A stretch of DNA of 64,000 bases from contig OX345645.1 of the NCBI GenBank assembly GCA_947044365.1, positions 3,127,741-3,191,740 on the forward strand, written 5' to 3'. The position numbers were made by a program, and so were the translations under genes. Source of the DNA: Petrosia ficiformis (taxonomy: Eukaryota; Porifera; Demospongiae; Haplosclerida; Petrosiidae). The notes beneath the pieces were generated by a model. The model did not search any database. It was not told where the DNA came from and saw only the letters and a list, made by a program, of their open reading frames with translations. Positions 9,601 to 48,700 of this stretch are shown piece by piece (positions within the stretch are counted from its first letter, which is position 1; each line of letters starts with the position of its first letter).

Positions 9601-10956
9601 TAATGAGCTCAGTTTAAACTTAAACGTCTTTTATAAGTACAGGAATTTTATCCCGATATCTTTCTATAATGTGATTAGTCTGATCATATTATCCAGTTCT
9701 GTAATTTATGATTAGTTCTTGTGATATCACTAATGACGATTAAAATTAAAACTTTTTACCAGCAATAATCATATACCAGTATACATGTATTTGGTATCAT
9801 TATCACATGTTTTCAAATTGCTTTAATGAAAAATTAGGTTGTTTCTTCATATAAGAAGTCACGAAATTATGTTATATTTATAAAGTCCCATGCGATATAA
9901 GAAGCATGTTAGGACTACTGACATTGTTAGGGCTATATCAGGATGTTTTTGTTCTTACTCAAGCATGAAATTATTGTATTCTGTGGTTTATATAAGTATT
10001 ATACTATTTTGAATGTGTAATATAGCTACTATACTATCCTTATATGAAGTGATGACCAAAAATTAAAATCATCCTAAAGATGAACATCTATTATATAAAT
10101 CTAAATGTACTAGAGTTCCCAGTTACTGCTGGTGTTAATTACACAACATAAAAGGGGGACCAAAAATATGCAACTTTTCAAGAAGAGCATGAATATTCAA
10201 CTCTGTCTGAATTGCCACTACAGTATGTGTGACCTCAACTTCCACACTTTTGACATGTACAACAATATGAATACTCTCTTTATCTTCAATTGTCACAATC
10301 TAATAGTGGAGACATATTTCTTCAGTATCATGATACATTTGTTAATCAAATTATTTTGTCAAACTCTTGTGTTTAAACACTTGTTACTTAGCCAGTTTGT
10401 ATAAGAGATGGCAGCATCAGTGGTGATAGAGAATAATAAATAATAATATTATTGAAATATTAATTACAATGTATTATTATAATTGTTTACACAGTACCTA
10501 CTTATAACCCACTTATTTTCAAGTATGTTGTAAATTCCTTCGGGTCTTAGGTATTCCTGTGCTTAAGCATGGGGTTTAATGGTACAATACGTATAGTTTA
10601 TGATTTATGTCGTATTGCACATTGTTGGATTCAGCAAGTAACGACAAGTAGAATTCTATTTGTTGCATGTCAATATGACGACGTATAAGGAAGTTATAAC
10701 CACAAACATTCGCAACTCCTGAATGTGACTAGACTATAGTACAGTTGCGATGAATAGTGATTTAATTTGTCATACATCAATATGGTAGTACAATTAATTA
10801 TAGTACAGGAAGTTGGTAAAAACATCTAATTATATAGTTACTGATATCACAACTACTTTGTATGATTTGAAGCACCATTTGGTTTCTGTTGTTGCTATAA
10901 CTATTCAAACATATAGCCGTGTTGTTATTAGGTTCCTCAGCACAGGTGTTCCTGTG

Positions 10957-10997
<41 letters not shown>

Positions 10998-13900
10998 GCA
11001 AAACTGCTTGGCCAAAACTGCAAATGCTAGTTCTTTGATTGAGGTAATAATAGATGAGTAAAACCAGGAACATAGTGAAACGATATATTTTGAAATGTAA
11101 TCGTGGGCTCCTGCAAAGCAAATGTGAAAAAAAGTTTTTTGTCTCAAGTTTATGTTGCTGTTGGACCCTGAGAAGACTTCAGTAATATCATAACATGTCA
11201 GACAGCCATTCCTAGCATTACTTATCTACTTGAGGTCTAGCAACATTGAAGCATTAACAAGGTTCTCACTAGGTTTTACTTTCGGTGGTGGTGCTGCAGC
11301 AGCTGCACCACTATTTATACAGTTTGTACCACCAATTAAGCTGTGGAATTCAACCTGCACAACCATCTTTTTAATGGCTCAACACAAACCTTTACACTAT
11401 TGTAAATACAATATGTATAATCCTTCTCTAGCTCACCAAACGAGTCTAATTAATTGACCACTCAAACACACTTCAGCCACACCCACTAAATATTTTGACA
11501 ATTTGAAAACATCAATAAGAATTTATACCTGCATCACGAATTGCAAAAATTCTGACAAGAGCACTGAGCAGTGATACATTGAAACTATAAATGTACCCTA
11601 CTACTAATAGGAAATACATGACAAATATTATGCTGTACACATGTACAAACTACCATCATGTTGAATATAAATAATATAAATTCATGAAATATTGGTATGG
11701 AAACATATAAATAATATCTTGCTTAGTGCAATTACTAAATCAAGCTCACATTTCTCAGATACAGTCACACATATACGTACATACCACAGTGGCTGAATCC
11801 ATAGTAGTGCACACACATTCATGAATATTTAATTAGCTCAGTTTCTCTTATAAGTACAGGAATTTTATCCTGATATCTATCTATATGGTAGTTGTATTAT
11901 CCAGTTCTGTAAATTAGGATTAATTCTAGTGATTTTTAGTTTTATCACTAATTATCACTAATAACAATTCAAAATATCAATCCATCAAAATGTTTAAAAC
12001 TACAGTATGTATTTATCAAGTATTATTATACTAGCTTCATTATGTTATTGTATGTATATCTAGTGGAATATCATAGGATTTTAAAAGAACGAGAGCCTTT
12101 TAACCAGCAATCATTCTATATAGTATATTTGCTTTACAAATTAATTTCATTTGTCAGTCATTTGACTATCACATGTTTTAAATCACATTTTAATAAATCA
12201 AAATCATCTTAAAGATGAACATCTATTATAAAACTAAAAACCAAAAGAGTTCCAAATAATTGCAAATTAATACCAAACAGGACCTGGACCAAAAACATGC
12301 AACTTTTCAAGAGAAGCATGAATATCCAACTCTGTCTGAATTGCCACTACAGTATGTGTGACCTCAACTTCCACACTGTTGACATGTACAACAATATGAA
12401 TACTCTCTTTATCCTCAATTGTCACAATCTAATAGTGGGAAATATAATCAAATTTCTTCAGTATCATGATACATGTACATTTGTTAATCAAATTATTTGT
12501 CAAACTCTTACATTTAAACACTTGTTACTGAACCAGTTTGTACAAGAGACTAACTAAATTTGTTACCTAGGTGGTGAAGCAATAATTGCTCTTCCAGGAT
12601 ACCAGACTTAGTTGGCTATCTATAAAAAATGACTGAATTATGAGCATTTAAATGTAAGCATTTGACAAAATTATTATTTGTCAAATGTCTGATTTTTGCA
12701 TCCATGATCACATAATTATGAATCATGTGATACACTTCATTTACAAATACCTTAATATGATAACAACCATCACTTCCCGGTCCAGATGGGGTAACACGAT
12801 ATATAAGAACTCTAAAGACCTCAAATTTTATCCCAATCCTCTCTTCAACAGTAGCTCTCACCTGAGGAATATTCGAGATATACACATGTACATACCTAAT
12901 AATTCTAACACTTATACTGAACTGACCTTATCAGCTATATCTTGAATTCGCTTATCAGCTGGTAAAATAGGACCTGGTGATGCCATAACTGCTTGCTTTT
13001 AGAGTTCAGTGATATCTGCTTCTGCTTTTAGAATCCAGCAATATCTGCTTGTGCTTTTATAGTCTTCAGTATCACAGCTGATAATCATAAATAAATTAGA
13101 TTATTACACACTTATGCGGAAGCAATGCGGAAAAGCAAATTTGTAAGTATGTTATACTATACATGTACATTTATATACATGTACATATAGAACCCATGTG
13201 CATGTATATGAAATTACATTGCTTATATTCTCCCTTCCTGGAGTAGAAGTGTTACTATAATATCTCTCTTATTTCTTTAAGTGGTTAGATCTTCTAATGT
13301 TTCTGTAATACATGTACTTAGTAATGCACCTGGTATACATAATATGCATGTAATAATTCATATATAAAATATATTATATAATTATTTATGGTGGTACCAC
13401 AAAGACCCAGCTGATCAGTACATGTACATTGTAATTAGTACTCACAAATGCATGCAACTAATATATTGTGTGCTTGTTGTTCTTGTGAGTCACATTAGCC
13501 AGTTGTATTTTCTACTTTTTCAAAACAAACATAATTTCCATTCTAAACATTCATTCATCGGTGATTACAGTAATATCATGATATTGGTGATTGAGGTATT
13601 AGAATTTGCAATATAAAATATGTTAGTATTGTGCATGTAATGGTTGTAACCATAGCAACCTGCGTAATTTTTAAATTACTCAGTTGTGTAAAGGGTACAC
13701 TACAAAACAAATAACTATTATAGTCAATTCAAGTTCAGGAGTCACTGATCCCAACAGCGTCTAAAGGAAAACGAGTCAGGAGCATCTCCAAAAGTAATAT
13801 TTGTAATCGACATGAGTATTTTGATTGGCAAAGTAAGAAATAGAAGTCTACTCCACGTAAGTAATGTAAAAAGACTGACGAACCTTCTCAGAGTGCATTG

Positions 13901-16900
13901 TGAACTGTGTCCTGCTGGAGAAAAGAATGCTGGATGGAAATTCCTTTATACGTATCTCCAAGTAAGAGGTGTAAGGAAAGCAGAGAACAAGTAGATGTTA
14001 TGTCGGTTACAAGTGAAAGGTCATATTAAAAAGCATAATAAGGAATTCACTTTGTCTGCTGTGAAAGATCTCACTTGTGAAGGTTTCTGGAAAGTAGGAC
14101 CTGAACATTGGAGAAAGAACATTAGCCATGTTAGAAATAAATTGGAAGACCACTAATCTAATACATAGATGTGTTAGTTCATTTTTGAGGAGAATCAGAT
14201 GAGTCATCAGAGGAAGAAAACAGTAATTGAGAATCAGATGGCAGCGTCAGTAGTGATAGAGAATAGATAATATAGTATTGAAATATTAATTGCAGTGTAT
14301 TATTATAATTGTTTACACAGTACCTACTTATAAGCCACTAGTGTAATGGTACAATATGTACAGTTTATGATCTGTGATCGTATCGAACATTATTGGATTC
14401 AGCAAGTAACAACCAGTAGAATGGTCTTTGTTGTTTATCAATACGATGATGTATAAGAAAGTTTATAACCACAGACGTCTGCGACTCCCGAATGTGAATA
14501 GACTATAGTACAGTTTCAAAGAATAGTGATTTAGTTTGTCATACGTCATCAATAATTATGGTAGTACAGTTAATTATAGTACAGGAAGTTGTGTAAAAAA
14601 AATCGAATTATATAGTTACTGATATCACAACTACTTTGTATGATTTGAAGCACCATTTGGTTTCTGTTGTTGCTGTAACTATTCAAATATACAGCCGTGT
14701 TATTAAGTTTCCTCAGCATAGGTGTTCGTGTGGTGTGTGTGTTTGTGTGTGTTGTGAAACTACAAATCGATTGAGGTAATAATAGATAAGTAAAACCAGG
14801 AGCATAGTGAAATGATGTATTTCGAAATGGTATCGTGGGCTCCTGCAAAGCAAATGTGAAAAACAGTTTTTATGTCTGAAGTTTATGTTGCTGTTTGACC
14901 CTGAGAAGACTTTAGTTATATCAGAACATGTCACACAGCCATTCCTAGCGTGACTTACCAACTTAAGGTCTAGCAACATTGAAGCAGTGACAGGGTTCTC
15001 ACTAGGCTTTTCAGTGGTGGTGCTGCAGCAGCTGCACCACTATTTACACAGTTTGTACCACCAATTAAGCTGTGGAATTCAACCTGCACAACCATCTCTT
15101 TATGGCTCAACACAAACCTTACACTATTGTAAATACAATATGTATAATCCTTCTCTAGCTCACCAAACAAGTCTAATTAATTGACCACTCAAACACACTT
15201 CAGCCACACCCACTAAATATTTTGACAATTTGATAAAAGTTTATACCTGTATCACGAATTGCAAAAATTCTGGCAAGAGCACTGAGCAGTGATACAATAA
15301 AACTATAAATGTGCTTAGTTCAATTACTGAATCAAGCTTACCATTTCTCAGATAGTCACACACACATATACATACCACAGTGGCTGAATCCATAGTAGTG
15401 CACGCACACTCATGAATTTATAATGAGCTCAGTTTAAACTTAATGTCTCTTATAAGTACAGGAATTTTATCCTGATATCTATCTATATGGTAATCATATT
15501 ATCCAGTTCTGTAATTTACATATGTATGATTAATTCTTGTGATATCACTAATAACAATTCAAAATATCAATCCATCAAAATGTTTAAAACTAAGTATGTA
15601 TTTATCAAGTATTATATACTAGCTTCATTATCTTATCACATGTATATCTAGTGGAATATCATAGGATTTAAAGGAATGAGACCCTTTTCACCAGCAATCA
15701 TTCTTAACCCTTACCAAAAGTGGTGACTCTATTGCATATATTTTGGCCACCGTTCACTTTCCCTACCCCAAACTTGGCTCCTTTTTCGACGTGGAGTACT
15801 ACTTCTACCAACTTGCTTACCAGGACTCGAAAGCCCCCAAGCGCTTCGTAGGATTAAATCAAATGCAGTTCTCTCCCTCTTTTGACTGGAACTGGGGCAA
15901 ACAAAATGACCCCACTGCATGTTAGCCACCAGCTACACCCACGATTTCAGGTTTTACAGCAAAGGAAATACCTTAGGTACCCCACCAGAGCAAGTGCCTG
16001 ACACCAATTATAAGCATTTGGAGTTCTTCGTAATGCTAGGAACACACTTCGAACCACGTAGGGGTCAAATGTCACATATATGTGAAATCAGTCCTCTAAG
16101 GGATATAGTATATTTGGTTTTCAAATTAATTTCATTTGTCAGTCATTTGACTATCACATGTTTTAAAATTTAATAAATCAAAATCATCCTAAAGATGAAC
16201 ACTATTATAAAACAAAAATCAAAAGAGTTCCAAATAACTGCAAATTAATAGCAAACAGGACCATGCCAAATGTGCAACTTGTCAAGAGGAGCATGAATAT
16301 CCAACTCTGTCTGAATTGCCACTACAGTATGTGTGACCTCAACTTCCACACTGTTGACATGTACAACAATATGAATACTCTCTTTATCCTCAATTGTCAC
16401 AATCTAATAGTGGAGAATATAATCAAATTTCTTCAGTATCACGATACATTTGTTAATCAAATTATTTGTCAAACTCTTACATTTAAACACTTGTTACTCA
16501 ACCAGTTTGTACAAGAAACTAACTAAATTTGTTACCTAGGTGGTGGAGCAATAATTGCTCTTCCAGGATACCAGACTTAGTTGGATATCTATAAAAAATG
16601 ACTGAATTATGAGCATTTAAATGTAAGCATTTGACAAAATTATTATTTGTCAAATGTCTGATTTTTGTATCCATGATCACATATTTATGCATCATGGGAT
16701 GTACTTCATCTACAAATACCTTAATATGATAACAGCCATCACTTCCTTGTCCAGATGGAGTCACACGATATATAAGAACTCTAAAGACCTCAAATTTTAT
16801 CCCAATCCTCTCTTCAACAGTAGCTCTCACCTGTGAAATATTCGAGATATACACATGTACATACCTAACACTTCTACTCAACTAACCTTATCAGCTATAT

Positions 16901-19900
16901 CTTGAATTCGCTTATCAGCTGGTAAAATAGGACCTGGGGATGCCATGACTGCTTGCTTTTAGAGTTCAGTGATATCTGCTTCTGCTTTTAGAATCCAGCA
17001 ATATCTGCTTGTGCTTTTATAGTCTTCAGTATACTGCTGATAAGCATAAATAAATTAGATTATTACATACTTATGCGGAAAAGCAAATTTGTAAATATGC
17101 TATACTATACATGTACATGTTTATACAGGTACATATAGAACCCATATGCATGTATATAAAATTATTTTTTTAAGTGGTTGGATCTTCTAATGTTTCTGTA
17201 ATACTTAGTAATGCACCTGGTATACATAATATACATGTAATAATTGTAGTATATTGTGTTTATTTAGTTATAATTCTACATATTCATGTTTTTTTGTGGA
17301 CATGCTCAGTTGTCGTTGTCTGTGGTTTATCTTTTGTATGGTCTATCGGAGTTTAGGTTGCTGTAGTACCTTTCTCCTTTTTGTGTATATATTTCTATAT
17401 TTTACGAAGAGATCTTTATTTAACTATTTAAGTTGTGGGTCAATTACACAAACATCACAATAATATGTATATAAAATATATTATATAATCATATATGGTG
17501 GTACCATAAAGACCCAACTGATCAGTACATTGTAATTAGTACTCACAAATACATGCAACTAATATATTGTGTGCTTGTTGTTCTTGTGAGTCACATTAGC
17601 CAGTTGTATTTTCTACCTTTTCAAAACAAACATAATTTCCATTCTAAACATTCATTCATCAGTGATTACAGTAATATCATGATATTGGTGAATGAGGTAT
17701 TAGAATTTGCAATATAAAATATGTTAGTATTGTGCATGTAATGGTTGTAACCATAGCAACCTGTGTAAGGTTTAAATTACTCAGTTGTGTACAGTGTGCA
17801 CTACAAAACAAATAACTATTATAGTCAATTCAAGTTCAGGAGTCACTGATCCCAACAGCGGAAGAATTGCATCATTGGAATGTAAAATTATTACGTGTTT
17901 GTGATCTCTTACTTGAGCTTGTACCTACCTCGTGTATACCCGCATGTCTTGGCAGGAAACTTAGAGAAAGTGTTGCTGTGTTTTTCGACCTGCATCTGTA
18001 GTTAGACTTGACATGTCTAAAGGAAAACGAGTCAGGAGCAACTCCAGTAATATTTGTAATCGACATGAGTATTTTGATTGGCACAGTAAGAAATAGAAGT
18101 CCACTCCACGTAAGTAATGTAAAAAGACTGATGAAGCCTCTGGCTTCTCAGAGTGCATTGTCAACAGTTGTGTCCTGCTGGAGAAGAGTATGCTGGATGA
18201 AAATTCCTTTACATCTCCAAATAAGAGGTGTAAGGAAAGCAAAGAACATGTAGATGTTATGTCGGTTACAAGTGAAAGATCATGTTAAAAAGCATAATGA
18301 GAAGTTCACTTTGTTGGCTGTGAAAGATCTCACTTGTGAAGGTTTCTGGAATGTAGGACCTGAACAATGGATAAGAACATTAGCCATGTTAGAGATACGT
18401 ACATTAGAAGACCACTAATCTAATACATAGAGGAGTTAGTTCATTTTTGAGGACAATCAGACGAGTCATTAGAGGAGAAAACAGTAATTGAGAATCAGAT
18501 GGCAGCATCAGTAGTGACGGAGAATAGATAATTATAAATGATGTAGTATTGAAATATTAATTGCAGTGTATAAATTGTATTATTATAATTTTTTACAGAG
18601 TACCTACTTATAAGCCACTTACTTTCAGGTATTCCTGTGCTTAAGCATGGAGTTTAATGCTACAATACGTATAGTTTATGATTTGCGATCGTGTCACACA
18701 TTGTTGGATTCAGCAAGTAACAACGAGTAGAATGGTATTTGTTGCATGTCAATGCGACGACATATAAGAAAGTTTATAACCACAGACGTCTGCGACTCCC
18801 GAATGTGAATAGACTATAGTACAGTTTCAAAGAATAGTGATTTATTTTGTCATACATCATCAATAATTATGGTAGTACAGTTAATTATAGTACAGGAAGT
18901 TGGTAAAAACATCTAATTATATAGTTACTGATATCACAACTACTTTGTATGATTTGAAGCACCATTTGGTTTCTGTTGTTGCTGTAACTATTCAAACATA
19001 CAGCCGTATTGTTATTACGTAAGTTTCCTCAGCACAGGTGTTCGTGTGGTGTGTGTGTGTGTGTGTGTGTGCGTTTTAGGTGTGCCCATTGTTAGTGGAG
19101 AAAGTAGTTACAGAAGTAGCCTTAATGTACTTACCCACTCTCCAACCAACCAATAAACACTGTAGACAGACCTGTCTCTGTCTACTGGACGATGAATCTG
19201 CTCTAAAAGTATCAAACCACTAGTTCTTACTTCCAATGCCCCATCATTGATTGAACTTAATTAAACCAAAATACTAAATTAATATACTTTTCAGTTGGCA
19301 AACGTTGGCTTAGCAGCTGAGATTGAGATTCTGATAACCTAATTGACCTGTAACATAGCTATAGAGCTATTTCATCACGGGATCAATTGCGCTGTCCCGC
19401 CTACGCATTTGGCATGTTGGTGTACAGCAGCTGCCCACACATTTTTATGTATTTGAAATGCAAATTACGCTGAAAACTTGAGTGAAGATGCGAAGAGAAG
19501 ATACAAGGACAAGATTAAAATAATAAATGATCTAGATCCATTTGCAAATGGTCTTGGGGAACCAGTAGTTGATTTTTGCCTTTAGTAAAAGCTGGTATGT
19601 GAAGTCTAGCATGCACTGTACCAACTGAATCAGCAATATCAAATATGCTGGAACATTGTCACCTGGAAGTAACTTGTCACAGTGTTCTGTTAAATAATTG
19701 TCACTCCCCCCCCCCCCCCCCCCCCCCCCCCCAAGTTTCGGAAACAAATGAAACCATACATTGTGGTGTTATTCCTATTAATACCTTCACAGTGTTATAG
19801 TGTTTGTAAGAAGACCACATGGAGGCTCATGCTTTGAGATTGGAAGGATGTTCACAAAAAAATTCAAAACTGTTACAGTCAATAACTACGGCGACTTTCT

Positions 19901-22900: not shown

Positions 22901-25900
22901 AAATAATATTGTGTTGCAAATATGAAAATGAATTAAGAAATTGTAACAATGAAAATAACAAAAAAACTTTTAGCTATGAGTATCATTAACGTCACCGTAC
23001 CGCCACCTTAATACAAAATCAAGCTCACAATTCTCAGATACAGTCACGTATACAATATGATTACTACAGTGGTTGAATCCATAGTAGTGTACACACATTC
23101 ATGAATTTGTAATGAGCTCAGTTTAAACTTAACATCTTTTATAAGTACAGGAATTTTACCCTGATATCTGTTTATATGGTAATCATACTATCCAATTCTG
23201 TAATTTATGATTAATTCTTGTGATATCACAATTGAAAATATTAATCCATCAAAATTTTTAAACTACAGTATGTATTTATCAAGTATTATTATACTAGCTT
23301 CATTATGTTATTGTATGTATATCTAGTGGAATATCATAGGATTTAATAAGAATGAGACCCTTTTAACCAGCAATCATTCTAGTATATTTGGTTTTCAAAT
23401 TAATTTCATTTGTCAGTCATTTGACTATCACATGTTTTAAATCACATTTTAATAATCAAAATCATCCTAAAGATGAACATCTATTATAAAACTAAAATCA
23501 ATTTAATAAGAGTTCTCAGTTACTGCAGGAGTTAATTACCGAACACCAAGTTCATGAAAAATATGCAACTTTTCAAGAGGAGCATGAATATCCAACTCTG
23601 TCTGAATTGCCACTACAGTATGTTTGACCTCAACTTCCACACTGTCGACATGTACAACAATATGAATACTCTCTTTATCCTCAATTGTCACAATCTAATA
23701 GTGGGAAATATAATCAAATGTCTTCAGTATCATGATACATTTGTTAATCAAATTATTTAGTCAAACTCTTACATTTAAACACTTGTTACTGAACCAGTTT
23801 GTACAAGAAACTAACTAAATTTGTTACCTAGGCGGTGGAGCAATAATTGCTCTTCCAGGATACCAGACTTAGTTGGTTATCTATAAAAAATGACTGAATT
23901 ATGAGCATTTAAATGTAAGCATTTGACAAAATTATTATTTGTCAAATGTTTGATTTTTGCATCCATGGTCACCTATAATTATGAATCATGTGATACACTT
24001 CATCTACAAATACCTTAATATGATAACAACCATCACTTCCTTGTCCAGATGGGGTCACACGATATATGAGAACTTTAAAGACCTCAAATTTTATCCCAAT
24101 TCTCTCTTCAACAGTAGCTCTCACCTGATGAAAATTTGAGATATACACATGTACATACCTACCATGGCTTTTTTTTAGTTTTTCAGCTTATCAGCTGGTA
24201 AAATAGGACCTGGTAATACCATAACTGCTTGCTTTTAGAATCCACAATTTTTTGTAAGAAATGTACTTCCATCTACAAATACCTTAATATGGTAACAGCC
24301 ATCACTTCCTTGACCAGATGGGGTCACACGGTATGTAAGAACTTTAAACACCTCAAATGTTATCCCAATATTTTCTTTAACAGTAGCTCTCACCTGTGGA
24401 ATATTTGATATATACACATGTACATACCTAATAATTCTAACACTTATACTGAACTGACCTCATCTGCTATATCTTGAATTTGCTTATCAGCTGGTAAAAT
24501 AGGACTTGGTTTGGCTTTTTTTTAGTCCACCAATATCTGGTTGTTTTTATAGTCTTTAGTATCACTACTTGTAATAGCAAAATGTACATGTTGAGTGAAT
24601 ATGTCTGATTTTGTACACAAGCTTGTTATATCTTTAATAGAAGTGATATTAATGTTATAACTTGTTTCCAACCATTCCTCATTCTTCTTATATGTTTGTA
24701 CAATATTTAATAATACACATAGCTAATATGTTTAACATCTACATGTAATTGAATTCATTATCAGGTGGTAAAATAGGATTGGGTGCCATTACTGATTACT
24801 TTTAGAGTCCACCAATATCAGCTTCATTTTTATAATCTTCAGTATCACTACTGACAAACATAAATAAAATATTGATTATTACACAGTTACATGTATGAGA
24901 AAGTGATTGAGTGCAATACGTGTTTAATATGTACATGTACTGTGAATATGTAATACTATGTATTTACATGTACATGTACATGTACATACATGTACATTAC
25001 ATTTCTTTTTCTATTTCTGTGAAGTATTCACTACCTTCAATAGAAGTGTTATTATCATGTTACTTGTTACATTACTCATTTTTCTGATGTTTATTTAGTA
25101 ATACTTTTATACATAATTATTACTGTATGATTATTATACACTATATTTATAAGCACTGCCTGCAGTATTGTAAATGTGTATGTAGGGAAGCATGTATGCA
25201 GTACTATTATGTACAATTGTACATGTACATGTATGTGCATACAATTACAATACTTGAACATTTTTGTGAAGTGCTCACTACCGAAACAATACAACTGTTA
25301 CTCTGTTATTAGGTTTTCCTATATGGTGCACCATTGGCCAAAAGAGCTTCTTATTTGGCACTATACAGTTCTCTTTTAGGCCAGACGGCACAGGTAATTA
25401 TGTCACTAACGGCATTAACTCTTTGTTTATTGGCTCAAGATGTATTCCCAATGGCGCCTACCTACATGTACTTGAGATCTAGCGACATTGAAACAGTGAC
25501 ACAATCAAACAATAGATGTACCTACTAATTACTGATGCATTGATAAGAGATTTTACCGATATTCCGATAAACCGATAATTACTTTAGATATGTACCAATA
25601 ACCGATACCAATTTGATATTATATCTACGTTCTGGTTTCTGATTCTTTCAATGAAAACGAGTATTTTCTTATTAATTATGAGTATCATAAAAGTAATTAA
25701 TGATGCTATAATCACAAGAAATGACTTTAATGGTACACTTTTGACAATATCGGTTATATCTTCAGAAATAACTGATACCAATACTGATATATTTTGAAAA
25801 AAGTATCCCTGTAATTGCTTTCTGATGACCATGTATCAATCATTGCTGATAGCACTAGTGTTTCTACCTTTCAGTGTACTCAAAAACTGGGGCCTAAAGA

Positions 25901-32071: not shown

Positions 32072-32146
<75 letters not shown>

Positions 32147-33696: not shown

Positions 33697-33746
<50 letters not shown>

Positions 33747-36700
33747 TACATGTACATGTATATACAATTACATTGCATTTTCAGTTTGATTGAAGTTCTC
33801 CTTACCTTTAATAGAAGTGCTATAACTGTTAGTATAATATCCTTTCTGTTACGATTTCTTCATTTATTATTTTAAGTAGTAAGATCTTCTAATGTTTCTG
33901 TAATACTTTGTAATACACCCGGTATACATAATATGCATGTAAATAATACTTGTAATTATAGCTAACTATATTATCTATTATCAGAGAGTGTGATAGTACT
34001 CTCTAAGTAGGCTCTGGAAAAAAAATGGCTGCTCATACATTTCAATTACTACTAATGAGCTGAAATCTCTGCTAATATGTACAGATAAGTTTAAATACAC
34101 ACTTAACATTTGATATTGAGTGTTTTTATGACTAATAATATCTTCTAGATGGCCACAGATGTTTGTTATAGTAGAGTACCAAAACTGGCTAAATCTTCAT
34201 GATAGTAATTTTTTTCCACAAAAAAAAACAACAATTTCTACATTTCTGAAGTAGTTCTAACACAAATACAAATTTGTTTACAATTACATTCCACTGAAGT
34301 ATTGTCGTCATACTGTTCTGTTTCTTGACTTAGACCCATTTCCACCAGCAATCATTCTAGTATATTTGGTTTACAAATTAATTTTATTTGTCAGTCATTT
34401 GATTGTCACATGTTTTAAATCACATTTTAATAAATCAAAATCATCCTAAAGATGAACATCTATTATAAAACAAAAATCAAAAGAGTTCCAAATAACTGCA
34501 CTTTAGTAGTGAACAGGACCGTTCCAAATATCCAACTTTCCAAGAGGAGCATGAATATCCAACTCTGTCTGAATTGCCACTACAGTATGTGTGACCTCAA
34601 CTTCCACACTGTTGACATGTACAACAATATGAATACACCTTTTCTCCTCAATTGTCACAACCTAATAGTGAAGAATATAATTCAGTATGATACATACATG
34701 TACATTTGTCAATCAAATCGTCTAGAGTTATAGTATCATTATAATTATGAATTGGAGATTGACACTACCACATATTGTAACAGTTACTACACTGCAAGAA
34801 AACAAAACAGTTAAAATAGCTAATTTAGTGGTTAGTACAGTTACAAGGATTTAACAATTATTAGTTGGTTGTTCGGAATACATACATCTAATGTCACAGA
34901 TAATTTTAGGGTGCTGTCTACTCATATTTCATGTCAAAGATTAGTATAATTTATACTAAAGTACACATGTAATAATTGTATATCGCCATCAAAAAGGTTT
35001 GTAAACCCGCAAACACATAATTTAATTTATACCTTCCAGTACTTGGTGCACATTAGGTTATAGTAACATACATGCATGTAGCCACAACATCTTCTATGAC
35101 AATTGACAATCTAAATTGAAACTCATGCTATTCCTTGAAACTGTACTAACCAATAAAATGGTTATTTTAACGATTTATTTTTTGCAGTGTATACAATTTT
35201 TTGTAAGAGATGTACTTCTCTGAAATACCTTCATATGATAACAACCATCGTTTATTCGTCCTGATGGGGTCACACGATATATAAGAACTTTAAACACCTC
35301 AAATTTTATCCCAATTCTCTCTTCAACAGTAGCTCTCACCTGAAAAATATTTGAGATATACACATGTACATGTACATTCGTAATAATTCTAACACTTATA
35401 CTGAACTGACCTTATCTGCTATATCTTGAATTCGCTTATCAGCTGGTAAAATAGGACCTGGTAATTCCATGACTGCTTGCTTTTAGAGTTCACCGATATC
35501 TGCTTCGTTTTTATAGTCTTCAGTATCATTGCTAGTGATAGCCCTGACTATTATTGAACAATAAACACAATAATCAAACATGTACATTCATATACGTATT
35601 ATGAGTGAATCTGTTATATATTTGTTTATTGTAATATAGCCCTGATTATTATTGAACTGAACACAGAAATCATGTACATGTACATGTATATGAGTGAATC
35701 TGTTATTTGTTTATTGTAATAACCCTGATTATTATTGAACTGAACATAGTAATCATATATATACTTATCATTATCTTGTCATGTGATAGCTCCTGAACAC
35801 AATAATCATGAATATATAATTAGTCAATCTGTCTGTGTTGTCTTGTAATTTATTGTTCATGTGATTTTGTAGATAAGCTATGGATTTTCACTTCAGGGCT
35901 AATAATGATTATACTGTACATAGCTAATAGTTCTTTATCAGATGGTAAAATAGGATTGGATGCCATTACTGCTTGCTTTTAGAGTGAACCAATATCAGCT
36001 TCATTGTATTCAGTATCACTGCTAGTGATGAGGAAAACCTTACATTGCAATAATGTAAATTCATGTACATGTACTGTGAATATGTAATACTGTGCATAGG
36101 CATGCATATACAGTACATTATTCTATTTCAAAATATTTTGTGAAGTATTCACTAACTTCAATAGGAGAAACAGCGGAATTGCAGAATTGATGGCAGAAAT
36201 CCCACATTCAAAATAGTATAATACTTATACAAACCACAGAATACAATAATTTCATGCTTGAGTGTCACCAAAACATCCTGATATAATCCGAATAATACCA
36301 GTACTCCTAACATCTTATATCATATGAGATTATATAAATATAACATTATTATAACCATTTCCGCAATTCTGCTGTTTCTCCCTGATTTTCTATAATATTT
36401 AGTAATGCACGTGTACATAATTATTATAGTAATGATTATTATATATTATATTTATAAGATTAAAGACACCACTTGCAGTATCATAAATGTTTATGTATGC
36501 AAGTATATATGCAATACTATCATGTACAATTACAATGCTTGAACATTTTTTGTGAAGTGCTCACCACCTTCAATAGAAACAATACAACTGTTACTAGCAT
36601 TCCATTGCCACACGTAGACGGAAGGCACCGTTAGTCTGATTGTGTTGTGTGTGTGTCACAATGCTAAAGCTTTGATTGAGGTAGTAATACACCTGTACAT

Positions 36701-39700
36701 GTAGGTGTAGAATGAGTAAAACCAGGAACATAGTGAAACAATTATAAACCAAGGATAGGAGGTATATATACCAGATATATCACTTGCTTTGGAGTAGGTT
36801 TATAACTTAGACCCATAGGCCCATGGAGTATATCCACATAAACCTCTGAACACTAGCAGGTGGTATATCTGGCATATATACCACTACCCATAGTTTATAT
36901 AACATATACTATGATTTAATAATTGATATTTTGATCATCAAGTGGTCTCCATGGTAACGTAGTATAATATTGGTATGATTATTATTTTCAATAAATACAT
37001 GCCTTCCATGAAACAAAGCATAACAATACAAGATATATTTAGAAAAACGTATCCCTATAATTGCTTTATGATGAATAGTGTCTCTACCTTTGCCAAGCGC
37101 TACTGTCTCTACCTTTCTGTGTACTTGAAATCTAGGCCTGAAGAAGTAAGTATAACTGCAGTCTAAGTGCACAGAAATCGAGTTACTGAAGCACTCTCTC
37201 AAGGTTCTAAAAATGACTTCCTCATGTCTGAAATTCAACAACTTATTATACGTATGTACTTGTTAAAGATTCCTGCATCATCTTTATACTGTTTCTCTGG
37301 TGTATACTATAGTATTGTCAGTTTACATTATTCCTGCTGGTCTGTTGCTCGAGTGCATGTGCACATTCTTTTACATGCCACGCCCATTAACTGACCAAAC
37401 CCCCCGGAATTATGCACTTCCTTAACTACGTATGCAATGCATACTCCTACAAATGACAAACATAATTATATATATATATATATAGTTCGAACTCATGGGA
37501 AAGCAATTATAGGGATGGTCCTATGGGCCATAACAAGTAAACTACATGTACTTCATGCACATGTACTAAGCTTATTATAAATTCATGAAATATTGCTATG
37601 GAAATGTGCAAATAATATGTCTTGTGAGCATACTTAATACTAAATCAAACTCACAACTCTCAGATACAGTCACACATATATATACATACCACAGTGGTTG
37701 AATTCATAGTAGTACACACACACTCATGAATTTATAATAAGCTCTACATGTCTTTTACAAGTAAGCATTTGACAAAATTATAATTTGTCAAATGTCTGAT
37801 TTTTGCATCCATGGTCACATATAATTATGAACCATGTGATGTACTTCATCTAAAAGTACCTTAATATGAGTAATATTTGTAATTGACATGAGTATTTTGA
37901 TTGGCAAAGTAAGAAATAGAAGTCTACTCCACCTAAGTGATGTAAAAAGACTGATGAAGCTGGCTTCTTAGAGTGCATTGTCAACCGTGTCCTGCTTGAG
38001 AAGAGAATGCTGGAGAGAACATGTAGATGTTATGTCGGTTACAAGTGAAAGGTCACATTAAAGAGCATAATAAGGAATTCACTTTGTCTGCTGTGAAAGA
38101 TCTCACTTGTGAAGGTTTCTGGAGAGTAGGACCTGAACAACCCTTTTCACCAGCAATCATTCTAATATATTTGGTTTTCAAATTAATTTCATTTGTCGGT
38201 CATTTGACTATCACATGTTTTAAATCACATTTTAATAAATCAAAATCATCCTAAAGATGAACATCTATTATAAAACTAAAATCAATTTAATAAGAGTTCT
38301 CAGTTACTGCAGGAGTTAATTACCAAGCAATTTGATCATGACCAAAAACATGCAACTTTCCAAGAGGAGCATGAATATCCAACTCTGTCTGAATTGCCAC
38401 TACAGTATGTTTGACCTCAACTTCCACACTGTTGACATGTACAACAATATGAATACTCTCTTTATCCTCAATTGTCACAATCTAATAGTGGAGAATATAA
38501 TCAAATGTCTTCAGTATCACGATACATTTGTTAATCAAATTATTTTGTCAAACTCTTACATTTAAACACTTGTTACTCAACCAGTTTGTACAAGAAACTA
38601 ACTAAATTTGTTACCTAGGTGGTGCTCTTCCAGGATACCAGACTTAGTTGGGTATCTATAAAAAATGACTGAATTATGAGCATTTAAATTTAAGCATTTT
38701 ACAAAAGTATTATTTGCTAAATGTCTGATTTTTGCGTCCATGGCCACATATAATTATGGATCATGTGATACACTTCATCCACAAATACCTTAATATGATA
38801 ACAACCATCACTTCCTTGTCCAGATGGGGTAACACGATATATAAGAACTTTAAACACTTCAAATTTTATCCCAATCCTCTCTTCAACAGTAGCTCTCACC
38901 TGTGGAATATTTGAGATATACACATGTACATACCTAATAATTCTAACACTTATACTGAACTGACCTTATCTGCTATATCTTGAATTCGCTTATCAGCTGG
39001 TAAAATAGGACCTGGTGATGCCATAACTGCTTGCTTTTAGAGTTCACTGATATCTTCTTCTCCTTTTAGAATCCACCAATATCTGTTTCTGCTTTTATAG
39101 TCTTCAGTATACTGCTGAGAAGCGTAAATAAATTAGATGATTCACAAGTATGAGGAAACAATGCGGAAAAGCAAATTTGTAAGTATGCTATACTATCCAT
39201 GTACATGTATATACATGTATATAAAATTACACTGTCTATATACTTTCTACCTATAACTGTTACTATGGAATCTAGAGTATTGTAATTGGTTTAATTTTTC
39301 TGTAATACTTAGTAATACACCTGGTATGATAATATGCATGCAAATAATATGTATATAAAATATATTATATAATTATACCTCAATATTAGGATGTGTTGAC
39401 CTTATATGTACTATAGCGTATAGTTTAATGTCATAAGGGTAATAGATGATTATACTGTTAACTCAATAATGAAGTTGAAATTTAACATACACAAAAAAAT
39501 GGAAAGATAATTATATGAAAATGGTGCAGATAGGAGGATTGCTGATGATGGCTATATTACTATATGATATGTTCCAGCTACAAAATGTTCAAATTCACAC
39601 ACTCAGTATGTTATTTCCCCACGCAGTATGCTGCACAAAAGGTTATATGATTGGTTCTGTTTGTCTGTCTGTCAGTCCAACTGTCTGTAAAAAAAAATAT

Positions 39701-42700
39701 TGGAAAAGGACTTTCTATAAGTTTATACACCTTCTAAACATCGAAAAGCTCAAAATTAGTGGTAGATGAACATCTGCATAGCTTGGAGTTGCCAATGCAG
39801 TCTACCGTATACACAATTCCTTTGCTTTCTTATTATCAGTTTAGAACAGTCCACCATTTTTTGGTCAGTCATGCCCTTCATAATAATTAATTTTGAGAGA
39901 TGGAGAAACTATTCCAGAAACTGATCTTGTTCTGTCAATAACTAAGCTAATATGCAATGTTGCATGGGGTATGTATTGTAGGAACATCTAGTTGTACATG
40001 TAATGGTTGTAACCATAGCAACCTGTATGCATTTATCAGTCATGTACAATGCAAAAAATAACTATAATTTATTGGTTAGTACACAGTTGGCAAGGAATAG
40101 TGATTAAGATGGTCATGCAAGTTGATATAGATATATGCTGATGTCACAAATACTTTGTATGATTTGAAGCATTGTATTTGTATCTTCCAGTTGTTTAATA
40201 ATGGGGTACAAATTATTACTTGAAAAATTGAATCGCACAGCTGTCTAACATTAGCCCATTATACACTGGGCAACATTGTTGCTTGTAACAGTTGCATGCA
40301 ACACTTCTTCCTTTCCATTCACAAGGCAACATTATTGCTTGTAACAGTTACATGCAACACTCCTTCCTTTCCATACACTAGGCAACATTATTGCTTGTAA
40401 CAGTTACGTGCAACACTGTTGTAAATGTTACATGATAGATCAAAGGAAGAAGTGTTGCATGTAACTGTTACAAGCAACAAATGTAGGGTTAGCTTTAGGC
40501 AGCTGCAAATACCAAATAATGCTTCAATGATGGTACAAATTACTATGTAACTGTAACACCACCGTGTATGTATCCATAACAATTAACCTGTATGACTAGT
40601 TAAAAATGTATACTATTCCTTGTAACTGTCTGTACTTACCTAGTTTTTTTGTTTCTTTGTTTGTTACACATTTAGTGTCCCTACATTTACTAGTAAGAAC
40701 ATGATATATTATATAGACAGAAAGGTATCCTGTTTTGTGGTGCCCATAATAATAATTATATAGACTATAGTAATTACATGTAGGTAGAATCTATGGTATA
40801 TAATTCTTATTCTGAATTTCTAATACAACAGGTGTTGCTAGTACATACCTGAGTAATTAGTAAGTAGATGAATCTGTACTTGAAATAACAAAAAACACTT
40901 ATTTTACTCCACAGATATTTGAGTATTGATTACCAAAGGTACAAGTACAAGATTTATATAAATGTACTGAATTTATATACATGTACATGTACTAAGGTAC
41001 TCTTCATATAAGGAATTATATTTTATGTGGAAATAATGCGGAAAACATAAATTTGTGTTGTAAAAATTACTGTGTGGCATCATCATGTATGTATCCATAA
41101 CAACCTGTACTTGTATGACCACTAAAATTCCTTGAAACTGTCTGTATTTATCTAGTTAGTTTACTATATTTCAAATGTTAAGTAAATGTTATAATGTAGT
41201 AACAAATGAGGTCATGAATAATTAATAAGCTAATATTCCCCTTTTTTTATGTTGAGACACAGTAACTGTGATAAGTGAGCAAAGGTTTTTTTGTTTTGAA
41301 GCACAGGCCAAATTGGCTCAACAAGGGTTATTGTGTGTGCCATGGAGGAAACACCTTGACAAAAAAGCAAGAGTTGCTGACAATATATTTGAATGTTCTT
41401 GGCATATGTTCCTAAAAGCAAATCATGTGGCACCAAATAAGAACCTCTTTGGGTCAAATCATGTGGCACCAAATAAGAACCCCTTTGGGTCAAATCATGT
41501 GGCACCAAATAAGAACCCCTTTGGGTCAAATCATGTGGCACCAAATAAGAACCCCTTTGGGTCAAATCATGTGGCACCAAATAAGAACCCCTTTTGGGTC
41601 AAATCATGTGGCACCAAATAAGAACCCCTTTTGGGTCAAATCATGTGGCACCAAATAAGAACCCCTTTGGGTCAAATCATGTGGCACCAAATAAGAACCC
41701 CTTTAGGTCAAATCATGTGGCACCAAATAAGAACCCCTTTGGGTCAAATCATGTGGCACCAAATAAGAACCCCTTTTGGGTCAAATCATGTGGCACCAAA
41801 TAAGAACCCCTTTTGGGTCAAATCATGTGGCACCAAATAAGAACCCCTTTGGGTCAAATCAACTGCTTACATGAGTTTCAATGCAATTTAAATAATATTT
41901 CCTCAATGCTGATTTGTTTTTCTGCTAAGTAATATTTACAAGTACAAGTACTTGATATATAAAGTACATGCCATAATAAAACAATACACAGTAGAATATA
42001 ATAATTATATAGTAATTACATGTAGGTAGAATCTCTTATTCTGAATTTTATGGATACAACAGGTGTTGCTAGTACATACCTGAGTAATTAGTAAGTAGAT
42101 GAATCTGTACTTGAAATAACAAAAAACACTTGTTTTACTCCACAAATATTTGAGTATTGATTACCAAACTACAAGTACATAATTTACTAGATTATAGCTC
42201 ATTAAAATGGTGCAATCTGATTGGTCAATTAGAGGTTTCTAAATCCCATAGTAAACCTACTTTTAATTACTTAGTAAACCTTTTGCAATGTTACACAGCT
42301 GACAAAATCGAGGTGTGCATGTTGCCCTCGAGAGCAAAACACTTGTGCTATTGAACCACCTTGCTGTCTTTCTGCAACTAAAAAAGAGTATGATATGGCT
42401 TTCTTGTTATGTATTCTATCCGACAAAGTAATAACTATAATCTAAATTAGTTAGATACTGTATTCTTGGTTTCCACGCGCAATAGAGGAAACATTAATTA
42501 TTTAGGCTCCGCCCTCAGTAATTAAACTGTTTCCACAGTAGTCTAATGCATGTAGAAACCTCGAATACAGTATCTAACATATATTAATATACATGTACTA
42601 AGGTTACTTCTTTATATAAGAAATTACAGCCACAATTATGTGGAAATAATGTGGGAAAACTTAATTTTGTGGGGTACAAATTACTGTGTGGCGGCATCAT

Positions 42701-45700
42701 CATGTATGTATCCATAACAACCTGTACCTGTATGACCAATTAAATTTCCTTGAAACTGTCTGTACTTATCTAGTTAGTTTACTATATTTCAAATGTTAAA
42801 TAAATGTTATAATGTAGTAACAAATGAGGTCGTGAATAATTAATAAGCTAATATTCCCCTTTTTTATTGTTATTCTGTTGAGACCCAGTGACTGTGATAA
42901 GTGAGCAGTTTTAAAGCACAGCCCAAATTGGCTCAACAATAGTTATTGTGTGTGCCATGGGGAAAACACTTTGAACTAGTAACAAAAACAAGAGTTACTG
43001 ACGAATGTCCAATGCATGTGTTCCTAACAGCAAATCGTGTAGCACCAAATAAAAACCACTTTGGGTCAATAGTTGTGAACTAGTGTATAGTGAGTCTTTT
43101 TCACAGGGAATTTACTTTCGTTTAATTTTCGCGGTCTATTGTAGAACGCGTAAATAACATTCTGCAGAAATTTATTTATGTATTCTTCAATTGACCGTGA
43201 TTGTGTGCGTGAATCATGGCATGAAATTTTATTGCATGAAATAGATCGCCACTGGAACAGTTTTCTCTCTTACCACGAATTTTTATGTCTGTGAAAAAAA
43301 CCAGCTATACAGTATATATGAGCCTATCAGAATCACTGAAATAGGTTCACCCAGCCTCAACCCATTAATTAGTTAATTATCTAAGTTTAGGACCATAACA
43401 ATTCAACCTGCCAAGAGGAGCATGAATATCCACCTCTGTCTGAATTGCCACTACAGTATATTTGACCTCAACTTCCACACTGTTGACATGTACAGCAATA
43501 TGAATACTCTCTTTCTCCTCAATTGTCACAACCTATAGAATGTAAAATTTTTCTGCAGTATCATGATACATATGTTGTTTAGAGTTATAACATCATTATA
43601 TAATTATGAATCATGTGATACACTTCATCTACAAATACCTTAATATGATAACAACCATCACTTCCTGGTCCAGATGTAGTCACACGATATATAAGAACTT
43701 TAAACACCTCAAATTTTATCCCAATCCTTTCTTCAACAGTAGCTCTCACCTGAGGAATATTTGATATATACACATGTACATACCTAATAGTTCTAACACT
43801 TATACTGAACTGACCTTATCTGCTATATCTTGAATTCACTTATCAGCTGGTAAAATAGGACCTGGTGATGCCATGACTGTTGCTTTTAAAATCTACCAAT
43901 ATCTGCTTTTGCTTTTATAATCTTCAGTATCACTGCTGACAAGCATAAATAAAGTATAAACTATTACACAATTATGAGGAAATAATGTGGAAAAACCTAA
44001 ATTTGTATGTATGCTATCCTATACATGTATATGTACATGTATATATATATACATATATACATGTATATACAATTACATTGCATTTTCAGTTTGATTGAAG
44101 TGCTCCTTACCTTTAATAGAAGTGCTATAACTCTTAGTATAATATTCTTTCTGTTATGATTTTTTCATTTATTTATTTCAAGTAGTTAGATCTTCTAATG
44201 TTTCTGTGATACTTAGTAACGCATCTGGTATACATAATATGCATGTAAATAATACTTGTAATTATAGCTAATTGATAGTACTCTCTAAGTAGGGATGGAT
44301 GGGTCTGAAAAAAAAATGGCTGCTCATACATTTCAATTGCTACTAATGAGCTGAAATTTCTGCTAATATATACAGATAAGTTTAAAATACACACTTAACT
44401 TTTGATATTGTGTGTTTTTATGACTAATAATATCTTCTAGATGGCTAAAGAAGTTTGTTATAGTAGAGTACTAAAACTGACTAAATCTTCATGATAATAA
44501 TTTTTTTCCACAAAAAAAACGATTTCAACATTTCTGAAGTAGTTCTAACACAGATACAAATTTGTTTACAATTACATTCCACTGAAGTATTGTTGTTGTA
44601 CTGTTCTGTTTCTTGACCTAGACCTATTTCCACCAGCAATCATTCTAGTATGTTTGGTTTTCAAATGTCAGTCATTTGATTATCACATGTTTTAAATCAC
44701 ATTTTAATAAATCAAAATCATCCTAAAGATGAACATCTATTATAAAACTAAAATCGAAAGAGTTCCAAATAACTGCTAATTAATAGGAAACAAGACCTGG
44801 ACCATAACAATGCAACCTGCCAAGAGGAGCATGAATATCCAACTCTGTCTGAATTGCCACTACAGTATGTGTGACCTCAACTTCCACACTGTTGACATGC
44901 ACAACAATATGAATACACCTTTTCTCCTCAATTGTCACAACCTAATAGTGAAGAATATAATTCAGTATGATACATACATGTACATTTGTCAATCAAATCG
45001 TCTAGAGTTATAGGATTATTATAATTATGATTGGAGATTGACACTACCACATATTGTAGCTGCTATTACTATTTATTGGTTAGTACAGTTGCAAGGATTT
45101 AACAATTAGTTACCACAGATACTTGTACTAATTATATTCAATTATAGTTAAATTACTATAATTTTAGGGGGCTGTCTAGTGTCTACTCATATTTAATTTC
45201 ATATAATTTATACTAAAGTATAATACATGTAATAGAAAGGTTTGTAAAGTACATGGCCATCAAAAAGGTTTGTAAACCCGCAAACACATAATTTATACCT
45301 TCCAGTACTTGGTGCACATTATGTTATAGTAACATACATGCATGTAGCCACAACATCCTCTATGACAATTGACAATCTAAATTGAAACTCATGCTATTCC
45401 TTGCAACTGTAGTAACCAATAAAATGGTTATTTATTTTTTGCAGTGTATATAATTTTTTGTAGGAGATGTACTTCTCTGAAATACCTTCATATGATAACA
45501 ACCATCGTTTATTCGTCCTGATGGGGTCACACGATATATAAGAACTTTAAACACCTCAAATTTTATTCCAATCCTTTCTTCAACAGTAGCTCTCACCTGA
45601 GAAATATTTGAGATATACACATGTACATTCGTAATAATTCTAACACTTATACTGAACTGACCTTATCTGCTATATCTTGAATTCGCTTATCAGCTGGCAA

Positions 45701-48700
45701 AATAGGACCTGGTAATTCCATGACTGCTTGCTTTTAGAGTTCACCGATATCTGCTTCGTTTTTATAGTCTTCAGTATCACTGCTAGTGATAGCCCTGACT
45801 ATTATTGAACAATAAACACAATAATCATGTACATGTACATTCATGTATCATGAGTGAATCATGTTTATTGTAATAGCCCTGATTATTATTGAACTGAACA
45901 CAACAGCGGAATTGCAGAATTGATGCAGAAATCCCACATTAAAAATAGTATAATACTTATACAAACCACAGAATACAGTAATTTCATTGAGTGTCACCAA
46001 AACATCCTGATATAACCCTAATAATACCAGTACTCCTAACATACTTCTTATATCATATGAGACTATATAAATATAACATTATTATAACCATTTCTGCAAT
46101 TCTGCTGTTTCTCCCTGATTTTCTATAATATTTAGTAATGCACGTGTACATAATTATTATAGTAATGATTATTATATATTATATTTATAAGATTAAAGAC
46201 ACCACTTGCAGTATCATAAATGTTCACGTATGCAAGTATATATGCAATACTATCATGTACAATTACAATGCTTGAACATTTTTTGTGAAGTGCTCACCAC
46301 CTTCAAATACAATACAACTGTTACTAGCATTCCATTGCCACACGTAGACAGAAGGCACCGTTAGTCTGATTGTGTTGTGTGTGTGTCACAATGCTAAAGG
46401 TTTGATTGAGGTAGTAATACACCTGTACATGTAGGTGTAGAATGAGTAAAACCAGGAACATAGTGAAACAATTATAAACCAAGGATAGGAGGTATATATA
46501 CCGGATATATCACTTGCTTTGAAGTAGGTTTATAACCTAGACCCATAGGCCAATGGAGTACATGTATATCCACATAAACCTCTGAACACTAGCAGGTGAT
46601 ATATCTGGCATATATACCACTACCCATAGTTTATATAACATATACTATGATTTAATAATTGATAATTTGATCATCAAGTGGTCTCCATGGTAGCATAGTA
46701 TAATATTATTATGATTATTATTTTCAATAAATACATGCCTTCCATGAAACAAAGCATAACAATACAAGATATATTGAGAAAAACGTATCCCTATAATTGC
46801 TTTATGATGAATAGTGTCTCTACCTTTGCCAAGCGCTACTGTCTCTACCTTTCTGTGTACTTGAAATCTAGGCCTGAAGAAGTAAGTATAACTGCAGTCT
46901 AAGTGCACAGAAATCGAGTTACTGAAGCACTCTCTCAAGGTTCTAAAAAATGACTTCCTCATGTCTGAAATTCAACAACTTATTATACGTATGTACTTGT
47001 TAAAGATTCCTGCATCATCTTTATACTGTTTCTCTGGTGTATACAATAGTATTGTCAGTTTACATTATTCCTGCTGGTCTGTAGCTCGAGTGCATGTGCA
47101 CCACATTCTTTTACATGCCACGCCCATTAATTGACCAAGCCCTCATGCACTTCTTTAACTACGTATATTTGGTTTTCAAATTAATTTCATTTTTCAGTTA
47201 TTTGACTATCACATGTTTTATTTAAATCACAATTTCAAAATCATCCTAAAGATGAACATCTATTATAAAACTAAAAATCAAAAGAGTTCCAACTAACTGT
47301 AAATTAATAGTTAACAATAAGACCACCAGGACCTTGACCAAAAACACTCAACTTGTCAAGAGGAGCATGAATATCCAACTCTGTCTGAATTGCCACTACA
47401 GTATATTTGACCTCAACTTCCACACTGTCGACATGTACAACAATATGAATACTCTCTTTATCCTCAATTGTCACAACCTAATAGTGGAGAATATAATCAA
47501 ATTTCTTCAGTATCATGATACATTTGTTAATCAAATTATTTGTCAAACTCTTACATTTAAACACTTGTTACTCAACCAGTTTGTACAAGAAACTAACTAA
47601 ATTTGTTACCTAGGTGGTGGAGCAATAATTGCTCTTCCAGGATACCAGACTTAGTTGGGTATCTGTAAATAATGACTGAATTATGAGCATTTAAATGTAA
47701 GCATTTGACAAAATTATAATTTGTCAAATGTCTGATTTTTGCATCCATGGTCACATATAATTATGAACCATGTGATGTACTTCATCTAAAAATACCTTAA
47801 TATGATAACAACCATCACTTCCTTGTCCAGATGGAGTCACACGATATAAAAGAACTTTAAACACTTCAAAATTTATTCCAATTCTTTCTTCAACAGTAGT
47901 TCTCACCTGAGGATTATTTGAGATATACACATGTACATACCTAATAATTCTAACACTTATACTGAATTGACCTTATCTCCTATATCTTGAATTCGCTTAT
48001 CAGCTGGTAAAATAGGACCTGGTGATCCCATGACTGCTTGCTTTTAGAGTTCGCTGATATCTGCTTCTGCTTTTAGAATCCACCAGTATCTGCTTCTGCT
48101 TTTATAGTCTTCAGTATACTGCTGAGAAGCGTAAATAAATTAGATGATTACACAATTATGAGGAAATAATGCGGAACAATGTAAATTTGTAAATATGCTA
48201 TACTATATAGGTACATGATAGGCATGTATATAAACTTACACTGCACATTTTCTCCATACCTTGAGCTATAACTCCTACTATAATATTTCTCTTATTAACA
48301 TTTCCTCATTTTTTAATTGGTTAGATCTTTTAATTTTTCTGTAATACTTAGTAATACACCTGGTATGATAATATGCATGTAAGTAATACATGCATGTATA
48401 TAAAATTTATTATATAATTATACCTCAATATTAGATGTGTTGACCTTATATGTACTATAGTGTATAGTTTAATGTCATAAGGGTAATGGATGATTATACT
48501 GTAACTCAATAATGAAGTTGAAATTCAACATACACAAACAAAAGGGAAAGATAATTAAATGAAAATGGTGCAGATAAAAGGATTGTTGATCATGGCAATA
48601 CTACTATATGATAAGTTTCAGTTGCTGTCTGTCTGTAAGAAAAAAATATTGGAAAAGGACTTTCTAATAGTTTGTACACCTTCTAAACATTGCAAAGCTC

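Follow-up and report, generated by a model that had tools for sequence, protein, structure and literature searches.

A minus-strand array of stefin-like genes without the QxVxG motif, very probably within the span of a CABIN1-like gene of the sponge Petrosia ficiformis

Introduction

What do the small three-exon genes repeated along one strand of a 64,000-nt stretch of the Petrosia ficiformis genome encode, and are their products still inhibitors of cysteine proteases? The stretch, here called the window (contig OX345645.1; G000:C10:3127741-3191740), belongs to a 191-Mb assembly of 29 contigs, of which C1, C11, C15 and C16 also appear below. In the original prediction, these genes were stefin-like cystatin genes lying antisense inside a single 43.4-kb intron of CABIN1, which encodes a histone-chaperone subunit. 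The analysis presented here indicates that they are stefins by descent and that, judging by their motifs, they are not expected to act on papain-type enzymes in the usual way.

Gene plan and stefin homology

Searches of the window with the array exons (blastn) gave eleven matches each for exons 2 and 3. For exon 1 they gave eight matches over 60 nt, one each over 59, 52 and 37 nt, and three fragments of 27-35 nt; all exon matches are on the minus strand, between positions 10,135 and 48,031. These exons form twelve copies of a small three-exon gene, seven of them intact (B, C, E, G, H, J and K) and five broken (A, D1, D2, F and I), exactly the count given in the original prediction, with the three exon 1 fragments as further remnants. 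The intact genes have open joined reading frames of 109-114 aa and GT-AG introns of phase 0, intron 1 having 56-71 nt and intron 2 171-567 nt. Exon 1 has 60 nt, exon 2 has 111 nt and exon 3 has 159-174 nt including the stop codon (156-174 nt over all copies), and these predicted sizes and phases were borne out by blastn and by translation of the joined exons. The peptides of the intact genes are near-uniform in exons 1 and 2, while exon 3 is near-uniform at first and then ends in a variable tail.

A single member of the family had eight matches in the PDB at E<=1, all of them cystatins (best E 2.9e-4). The family profile reached stefin B at E 3.1e-9, and the nine sequences that it matched at E<=1 were cystatins and one stefin-based scaffold, with nothing else. 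In the reverse test, the A1 profile gave a canonical stefin 24.9 bits, a score reached by none of 820 scored shuffles (1000 made), and a stefin B fragment 35.3 bits, reached by none of 973 scored shuffles (1000 made). The two phase-0 introns are at conserved stefin positions, the same places as in a QVVAG stefin on C11, of which the first two exons were seen; the comparison of gene plans also uses the exact intron positions of vertebrate stefins, which are assumed here.

Predicted structures, compared by applying VIA-align to Foldseek matches, match the cystatin fold of one helix and an antiparallel sheet, with mean pLDDT of 57.1 and 66.2. Lower in the structural match lists are latexin (one list), squash aspartic proteinase inhibitor (SQAPI), fetuin-B and CRES (the other list) and monellins (both lists). 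These are cystatin-fold proteins with other targets or roles; they are like the array family in having a cystatin-like fold, but they are absent among the family-profile sequence matches. The N-termini of the array proteins look cytosolic by eye, with no obvious signal peptide, and in this, as in their length of about 110 residues, they are like stefins. They also share sequence homology, predicted fold and the two intron positions with human stefins A and B and with the sponge stefins covered by a survey of basal-animal stefins, where intron positions are likewise conserved (PMC7913475). By sequence and gene plan, the array genes are stefins by descent, which agrees with the earlier reading of homology and three-exon plan; the earlier statement that exon 3 aligns without gaps did not hold, as one residue must be gapped against stefin B.

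A larger family in the genome

Exon 2 has at least 48 matches genome-wide (all with E<=1.6, 32 of them with E<=0.01), with 11 in the window, 23 on C16 and 14 on C1. Outside the window, the stretches read were C16 2.97-3.10 Mb, C16 1.199-1.209 Mb, C1 53.016-53.036 Mb and four short loci; the C1 set includes those of the 14 exon 2 places that lie inside the loci read, and C1 53.32-53.41 Mb was not covered as a whole. The 30 outside exon 2 loci were chained into 22 complete three-exon models, eight being incomplete, and the removal of three protein repeats left 19, which with the seven window genes make 26 distinct models.

In the tree, the seven window genes and P0001, a protein from the homologue search described below, form one clade (100/100), which adjoins a single C16 gene at ~2.975 Mb (90/87, not fully settled). 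The bootstrap as a whole was not fully settled, 14 of the 29 inner branches being open. In this genome the stefin-derived family extends beyond the array, which is one of its branches. The expansion proposed earlier is not confined to the putative CABIN1 intron, since exon 2 matches are also on C16 and C1. On C16, four stefin-like loci lie in a stretch, 14 kb or longer, that recurs (~2.998-3.013 and 3.025-3.039 Mb, L033-L037) at 26.4-26.9 kb spacing with identical or near-identical exon peptides; this may be a segmental duplication or an assembly duplication.

Loss of the QxVxG motif and variability of the loops

QxVxG was found in the first hairpin of none of the 26 models, and its place is taken in all 26 by YR[VQR][STN]P, with Y or H as the first residue. 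With the broken copies included, QxVxG was found in none of the 40 exon 2 peptides read (window, 11; outside loci, 29 of 30), and the YR..P form is present in 38 of them and missing from copy I and one broken copy on C16. At the pair of positions seven residues beyond the conserved His, L[P/D/S] was also absent from the 26 models, which have SV, FK, FN, TE, FQ, TQ, IE, FT, YT or TG there. A Gly in the first eight residues is present in 18 of the 26 models (7/7 in the window, 11/12 on C16, 0/2 in C16b and 0/5 on C1).

Variation among 31 family proteins is concentrated in the loops. Mean entropy is 1.28 bits at loop positions vs 0.83 at helix and strand positions (8 of 5000 permutations as extreme), with peaks of 2.14 in loop 2, 1.93 in the C-tail and 1.60 in loop 1, and loop 1 holds 167 of the 239 inserted letters. 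Counted from the residue after YR, loop 1 has 11-24 residues, vs eight by manual count in the C11 stefin, and it is rich in Pro and Gly in the C16 members.

Compared with stefins, the array family thus differs in the absence of QxVxG from the first hairpin and of L[P/D/S] after the conserved His, in the absence of the D-x-L-x-Y-F end from the models compared, in a longer and variable first loop and in the number of copies. According to the survey, every basal-animal stefin in it keeps Gly and QxVxG, LP is replaced by LD or LS in those of sponges, and most of the species covered have multiple cystatin homologues (PMC7913475). With QxVxG gone from every modelled member, the name cystatins is unjustified in the sense of inhibitors, so that of the original designation as stefin-like cystatin genes the descent is retained and the inhibitor sense is not. 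By motif, inhibition of papain-type enzymes in the usual manner is not to be expected of this family.

Two further systems can be compared. One is found in the Myxozoa, which are cnidarian parasites. Their atypical stefins, as the survey describes them, are also a lineage-specific stefin branch with an altered C-terminus and, in some, an altered second loop, but QxVxG is conserved there and lost in the array family (PMC7913475). The other is the engineered stefin A scaffold SQT, in which insertions are placed at the N-terminus, in loop 1 and in loop 2, and whose monomer keeps the cystatin fold, yet oligomerises (PMC6588553). SQT and Affimers are man-made and laboratory-selected, unlike the natural, genomic array family, in which loop forms are shared within clusters and not random.

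Location within a CABIN1-like gene

To the right of the array, between 56.8 and 63.5 kb, six collinear + strand stretches match a presumed human CABIN1 sequence. The CABIN1-like exons are at 56842-56928, 57792-57899, 58671-58766, 59490-59600, 61903-61950 and 63335-63541; four have E<=5e-6 (best 5e-13), and the weaker two, 58671-58766 and 61903-61950, have E of 0.002-0.003. On the other side, 6.5 kb left of the window (position -6509), the stretch LQLYHAAMKEQQKGKLDEARQLYCEILQSDIIH resembles an N-terminal, TPR-like exon of CABIN1 with E 0.0027 among the 46 pieces tried. It is bordered by an AG acceptor and a GTAAGA donor, and none of 20 shuffled piece sets matched as well.

Two results count against the nesting. 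CABIN1 had no match in the first 10 kb of the window (best E 0.15), and the left exon was not listed in a genome-wide search with a CABIN1 N-terminal fragment. No match at the array locus came from genome searches with fragments of the presumed human sequence. Exons between the N-terminal one and 56 kb were not identified by pattern or alignment rank, which leaves the single 43.4-kb intron of the original prediction as putative; a candidate at ~2.9 kb, plausible by eye, was dropped because it had no rank in the alignment. Nothing useful came from a PDB search with one CABIN1-like exon or from a Pfam scan of nine candidate exons. Because CABIN1-like + strand exons are present on both sides, the array very probably lies within the span of that gene and antisense to it, as had been predicted.

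Exon joins and transcript-like relatives

Used as query against 5.8 billion proteins, the family alignment gave 23 homologues. Six of them (P0001 and P0009-P0013) run uninterrupted across the predicted join of exons 2 and 3, five of these also across that of exons 1 and 2, and they lie on contigs of 527-653 nt. The remaining 17 read into an intron, 15 around exon 2 and two around exon 3. Evidently, these 17 were predicted from frames of unspliced DNA; the six uninterrupted ones would most simply be cDNA. Short contigs are no proof of this, since a compact gene can be as short with its introns included (E covers 566 nt). Residues 6-10 of P0012 are QPVVG; they are in its first exon, which is unlike that of the rest of the family, and not in loop 1. 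A protein search with the C11 stefin as query gave two short fragments.

In some copies, the reading frame of exon 2 continues beyond the donor site for about 40 more codons (minus strand, downstream of 12751 and of the corresponding positions), giving proteins such as P0002 and P0003. This read-through looked stefin-like by eye, but it was taken as intron and not as coding sequence, P0001 and P0009-P0013 using the distal exon 3; a shorter isoform may nevertheless be made.

Proposed origin and function

Here it is proposed, as a quite probable reading, that the array is a stefin-derived branch that moved into CABIN1 and multiplied there, keeping the stefin fold with a rebuilt binding edge. In the simplest history, one copy of the family would have been moved by DNA duplication, introns included, to the opposite strand of CABIN1, and then multiplied locally, including a duplication of a three-gene block. 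The proteins would fold as stefins, as the structure models suggest, and would act inside the cell, given N-termini with no obvious signal peptide by eye. Their target would be bound by the edge that stefins use on papain, formed by the N-terminal trunk and the first and second hairpins. The retained fold, together with YR[VQ][ST]P and variable loops, suggests that this edge was rebuilt, QxVxG giving way to YR[VQ][ST]P and the loop after it becoming longer and varying in length. With such an edge the proteins are probably not ordinary inhibitors of papain or cathepsins, and the members may instead bind divergent proteases or other proteins.

A more tentative and, on present evidence, doubtful extension is that the family is a natural binding repertoire on a stefin scaffold. 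The QVVAG stefin would have been kept while a stefin-derived copy multiplied, with its N-terminal trunk, loops 1 and 2 and C-tail free to diversify and its core held. The CABIN1 array would then be a sub-repertoire, perhaps for microbial or self proteins inside sponge cells.

No description of this family, of a sponge stefin expansion without QxVxG or of genes nested in CABIN1 was found in the open-licence PMC literature, and the earlier statement that the array is undescribed stands to that extent. A stefin-derived family without QxVxG, with its gene plan kept and its loops variable, beside a surviving QVVAG stefin, allows the change of target of an inhibitor fold to be tested directly. Additionally, opposite-strand nesting in CABIN1 offers a case in which interference between transcription of a host gene and that of an array nested in it could be studied.

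Evidence against the proposal and alternative explanations

Several observations weigh against the proposal. Within the window, omega (NG86) is 0.44 on a 300-nt core and 0.63 over all codons, with 0.23 in exon 2 and ~1.2 in the exon 3 core, where silent changes are few. The window has 18 silent and 28 replacement sites, vs 32.9 replacement expected (p 0.077 against neutrality; p 0.022 for exon 2 alone). Replacement divergence is below silent divergence (pN < pS) in only 41 of 66 pairs within C16; it is so in 9 of 10 pairs within C1 and in 131 of 133 pairs of a window gene with a gene of another cluster, these pairs sharing history and not being independent. Mean identity among the seven intact genes is 0.959 in exon 1, 0.924 in intron 1, 0.916 in exon 2, 0.945 in the exon 3 core, 0.829 at the end of intron 2, 0.764 upstream and 0.905 downstream; that intron 1 is at least as well conserved as exon 2 speaks against strong constraint. 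Constraint is therefore visible between clusters and weak inside the array, where local gene conversion is possible. As for expression, retrocopies would look like the six presumed cDNA sequences, and no transcript of a window copy was seen among the homologues, P0001 being close to H and identical to no window copy. The confidence of the structure models is moderate to low. In a Pfam scan of three window proteins, PF00031 gave 14.1 and 15.6 bits for two of them and no match for K, below the cut-off of 22.2 bits.

The weakness of constraint in the window, with five of the twelve copies broken and three exon 1 fragments beside them, is what would be seen if the array were mostly decaying tandem duplication with little function, its open frames being due to recent copying and not to selection. 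Intron 1 is as conserved as exon 2, and copies F and I, which have a common premature TGA, sit in the two copies of a block duplication. This explanation is nevertheless decidedly unlikely, considering the excess of silent over replacement divergence between the window and the other clusters, the occurrence of family members with correct exon joins as uninterrupted sequences, and the retention of YR[VQR][STN]P in every model. A further alternative would accept function and keep the proteins as cysteine-protease inhibitors, the new loop fitting cathepsin L or silicatein-like enzymes of the same sponge that diverged and increased in number alongside the family. Papain-family exons are indeed numerous in this genome (55 matches), with tandem groups on C15, where several exons are 60-71% identical to a presumed silicatein alpha sequence and one exon pair that was read is silicatein-like (GACYAFSA and GNHGCNGGNMYD), as would suit a demosponge; the Gly of the N-terminal trunk is also kept in all seven window models and in 11 of the 12 on C16. 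However, a Gly in the first eight residues is missing from all seven C16b and C1 models, and QxVxG is gone from all 26 models although it is reported as conserved in all basal-animal stefins of the survey (PMC7913475), so that continued inhibition of this kind seems unlikely. The C15 groups are at ~1.488-1.513 and 0.192-0.196 Mb, and the active-site motif GACYAFSA of the one read has Cys.

It could also be asked whether the exon pattern arose by chance or belongs to a non-stefin repeat family that resembles stefins. The Pfam cystatin matches of the window proteins are under the cut-off, and the only Pfam match of K is a weak one to LBR_tudor (E 0.012, also under the cut-off). A scan of NCBIfam gave weak unrelated matches only, and a six-frame search of the genome with PF00031 gave no match, its controls being likewise empty, which makes it uninformative. 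PF00031 matched all nine family-alignment members at E<=1 (best 9.4e-4), with 14.3 bits for P0001. This non-stefin reading was already disfavoured and is very improbable in view of the family-profile match to stefin B, with only cystatins and a stefin-based scaffold at E<=1, the shuffles of the reverse test, the intron positions equal to those of the QVVAG stefin of the same genome and the predicted fold match to cystatins. The profile check proposed with the original prediction gave a mixed result, the PDB matches being cystatins and the PF00031 scores staying under the 22.2-bit cut-off. The preferred reading remains that of a stefin-derived branch with a rebuilt binding edge.

Gene inventory and other features of the window

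The seven intact genes, all on the minus strand, have their exons 1, 2 and 3, respectively, at the following positions. Gene B (12267..12986) has them at 12927-12986, 12751-12861 and 12267-12428, with GT-AG introns and an open frame of 110 aa, and gene C (16245..16946) at 16887-16946, 16720-16830 and 16245-16403. Gene E (26985..27550) has exons 27491-27550, 27315-27425 and 26985-27143, and gene G (34503..35470) has 35411-35470, 35229-35339 and 34503-34661. Gene H, the tree partner of the transcript-like protein P0001, extends over 38320..39024 (38965-39024, 38789-38899 and 38320-38481), followed by gene J at 44780..45721 (45662-45721, 45486-45596 and 44780-44941) and gene K at 47304..48031 (47972-48031, 47796-47906 and 47304-47477).

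The broken copies are also on the minus strand. Copy A (10135..10299) consists of exon 3 alone. Copy D1 (23536..24222) has a truncated exon 1 (24186-24222) with exon 2 at 24014-24124 and exon 3 at 23536-23694, and copy D2 (24283..24518) has an exon 1-like stretch without ATG and exon 2 at 24283-24393, with no exon 3. Copy F (33034..33542) has an in-frame TGA in exon 1 and AA in place of AG before exon 3, and copy I (43377..43874) has an in-frame TGA in exon 1 identical to that of F. The three exon 1 fragments found by blastn (35935-35966, 28826-28852 and 24749-24778, minus strand) have no other exons.

Self-comparison showed that the three-gene block F-G-H with its flank (33028..40415) is duplicated as I-J-K (43371..49371). 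The paired segments are 33028-35665 and 43371-45902 (86% identity), 35935-37433 and 45687-47166 (90%), 38166-39577 and 47164-48621 (87%), and 39681-40415 and 48629-49371 (87%). As F and I carry the same exon 1 TGA, the block was probably copied after the death of that gene.

Between gene E and copy F, an 844-bp direct repeat (29472-30315 and 31289-32132) is 100% identical with 973 nt between the copies, and may have arisen by very recent duplication or represent mobile-element ends. Other repeats are at 5008-6219 (period 114 bp), 41376-41883 (36-37 bp), 53326-53817 (20 bp) and 57058-57783 (103 bp, less regular). Two tRNA-like sequences on the minus strand (1085-1157 and 1356-1428), whose neighbouring DNA is similar, are possibly copies of a tRNA-derived repeat.

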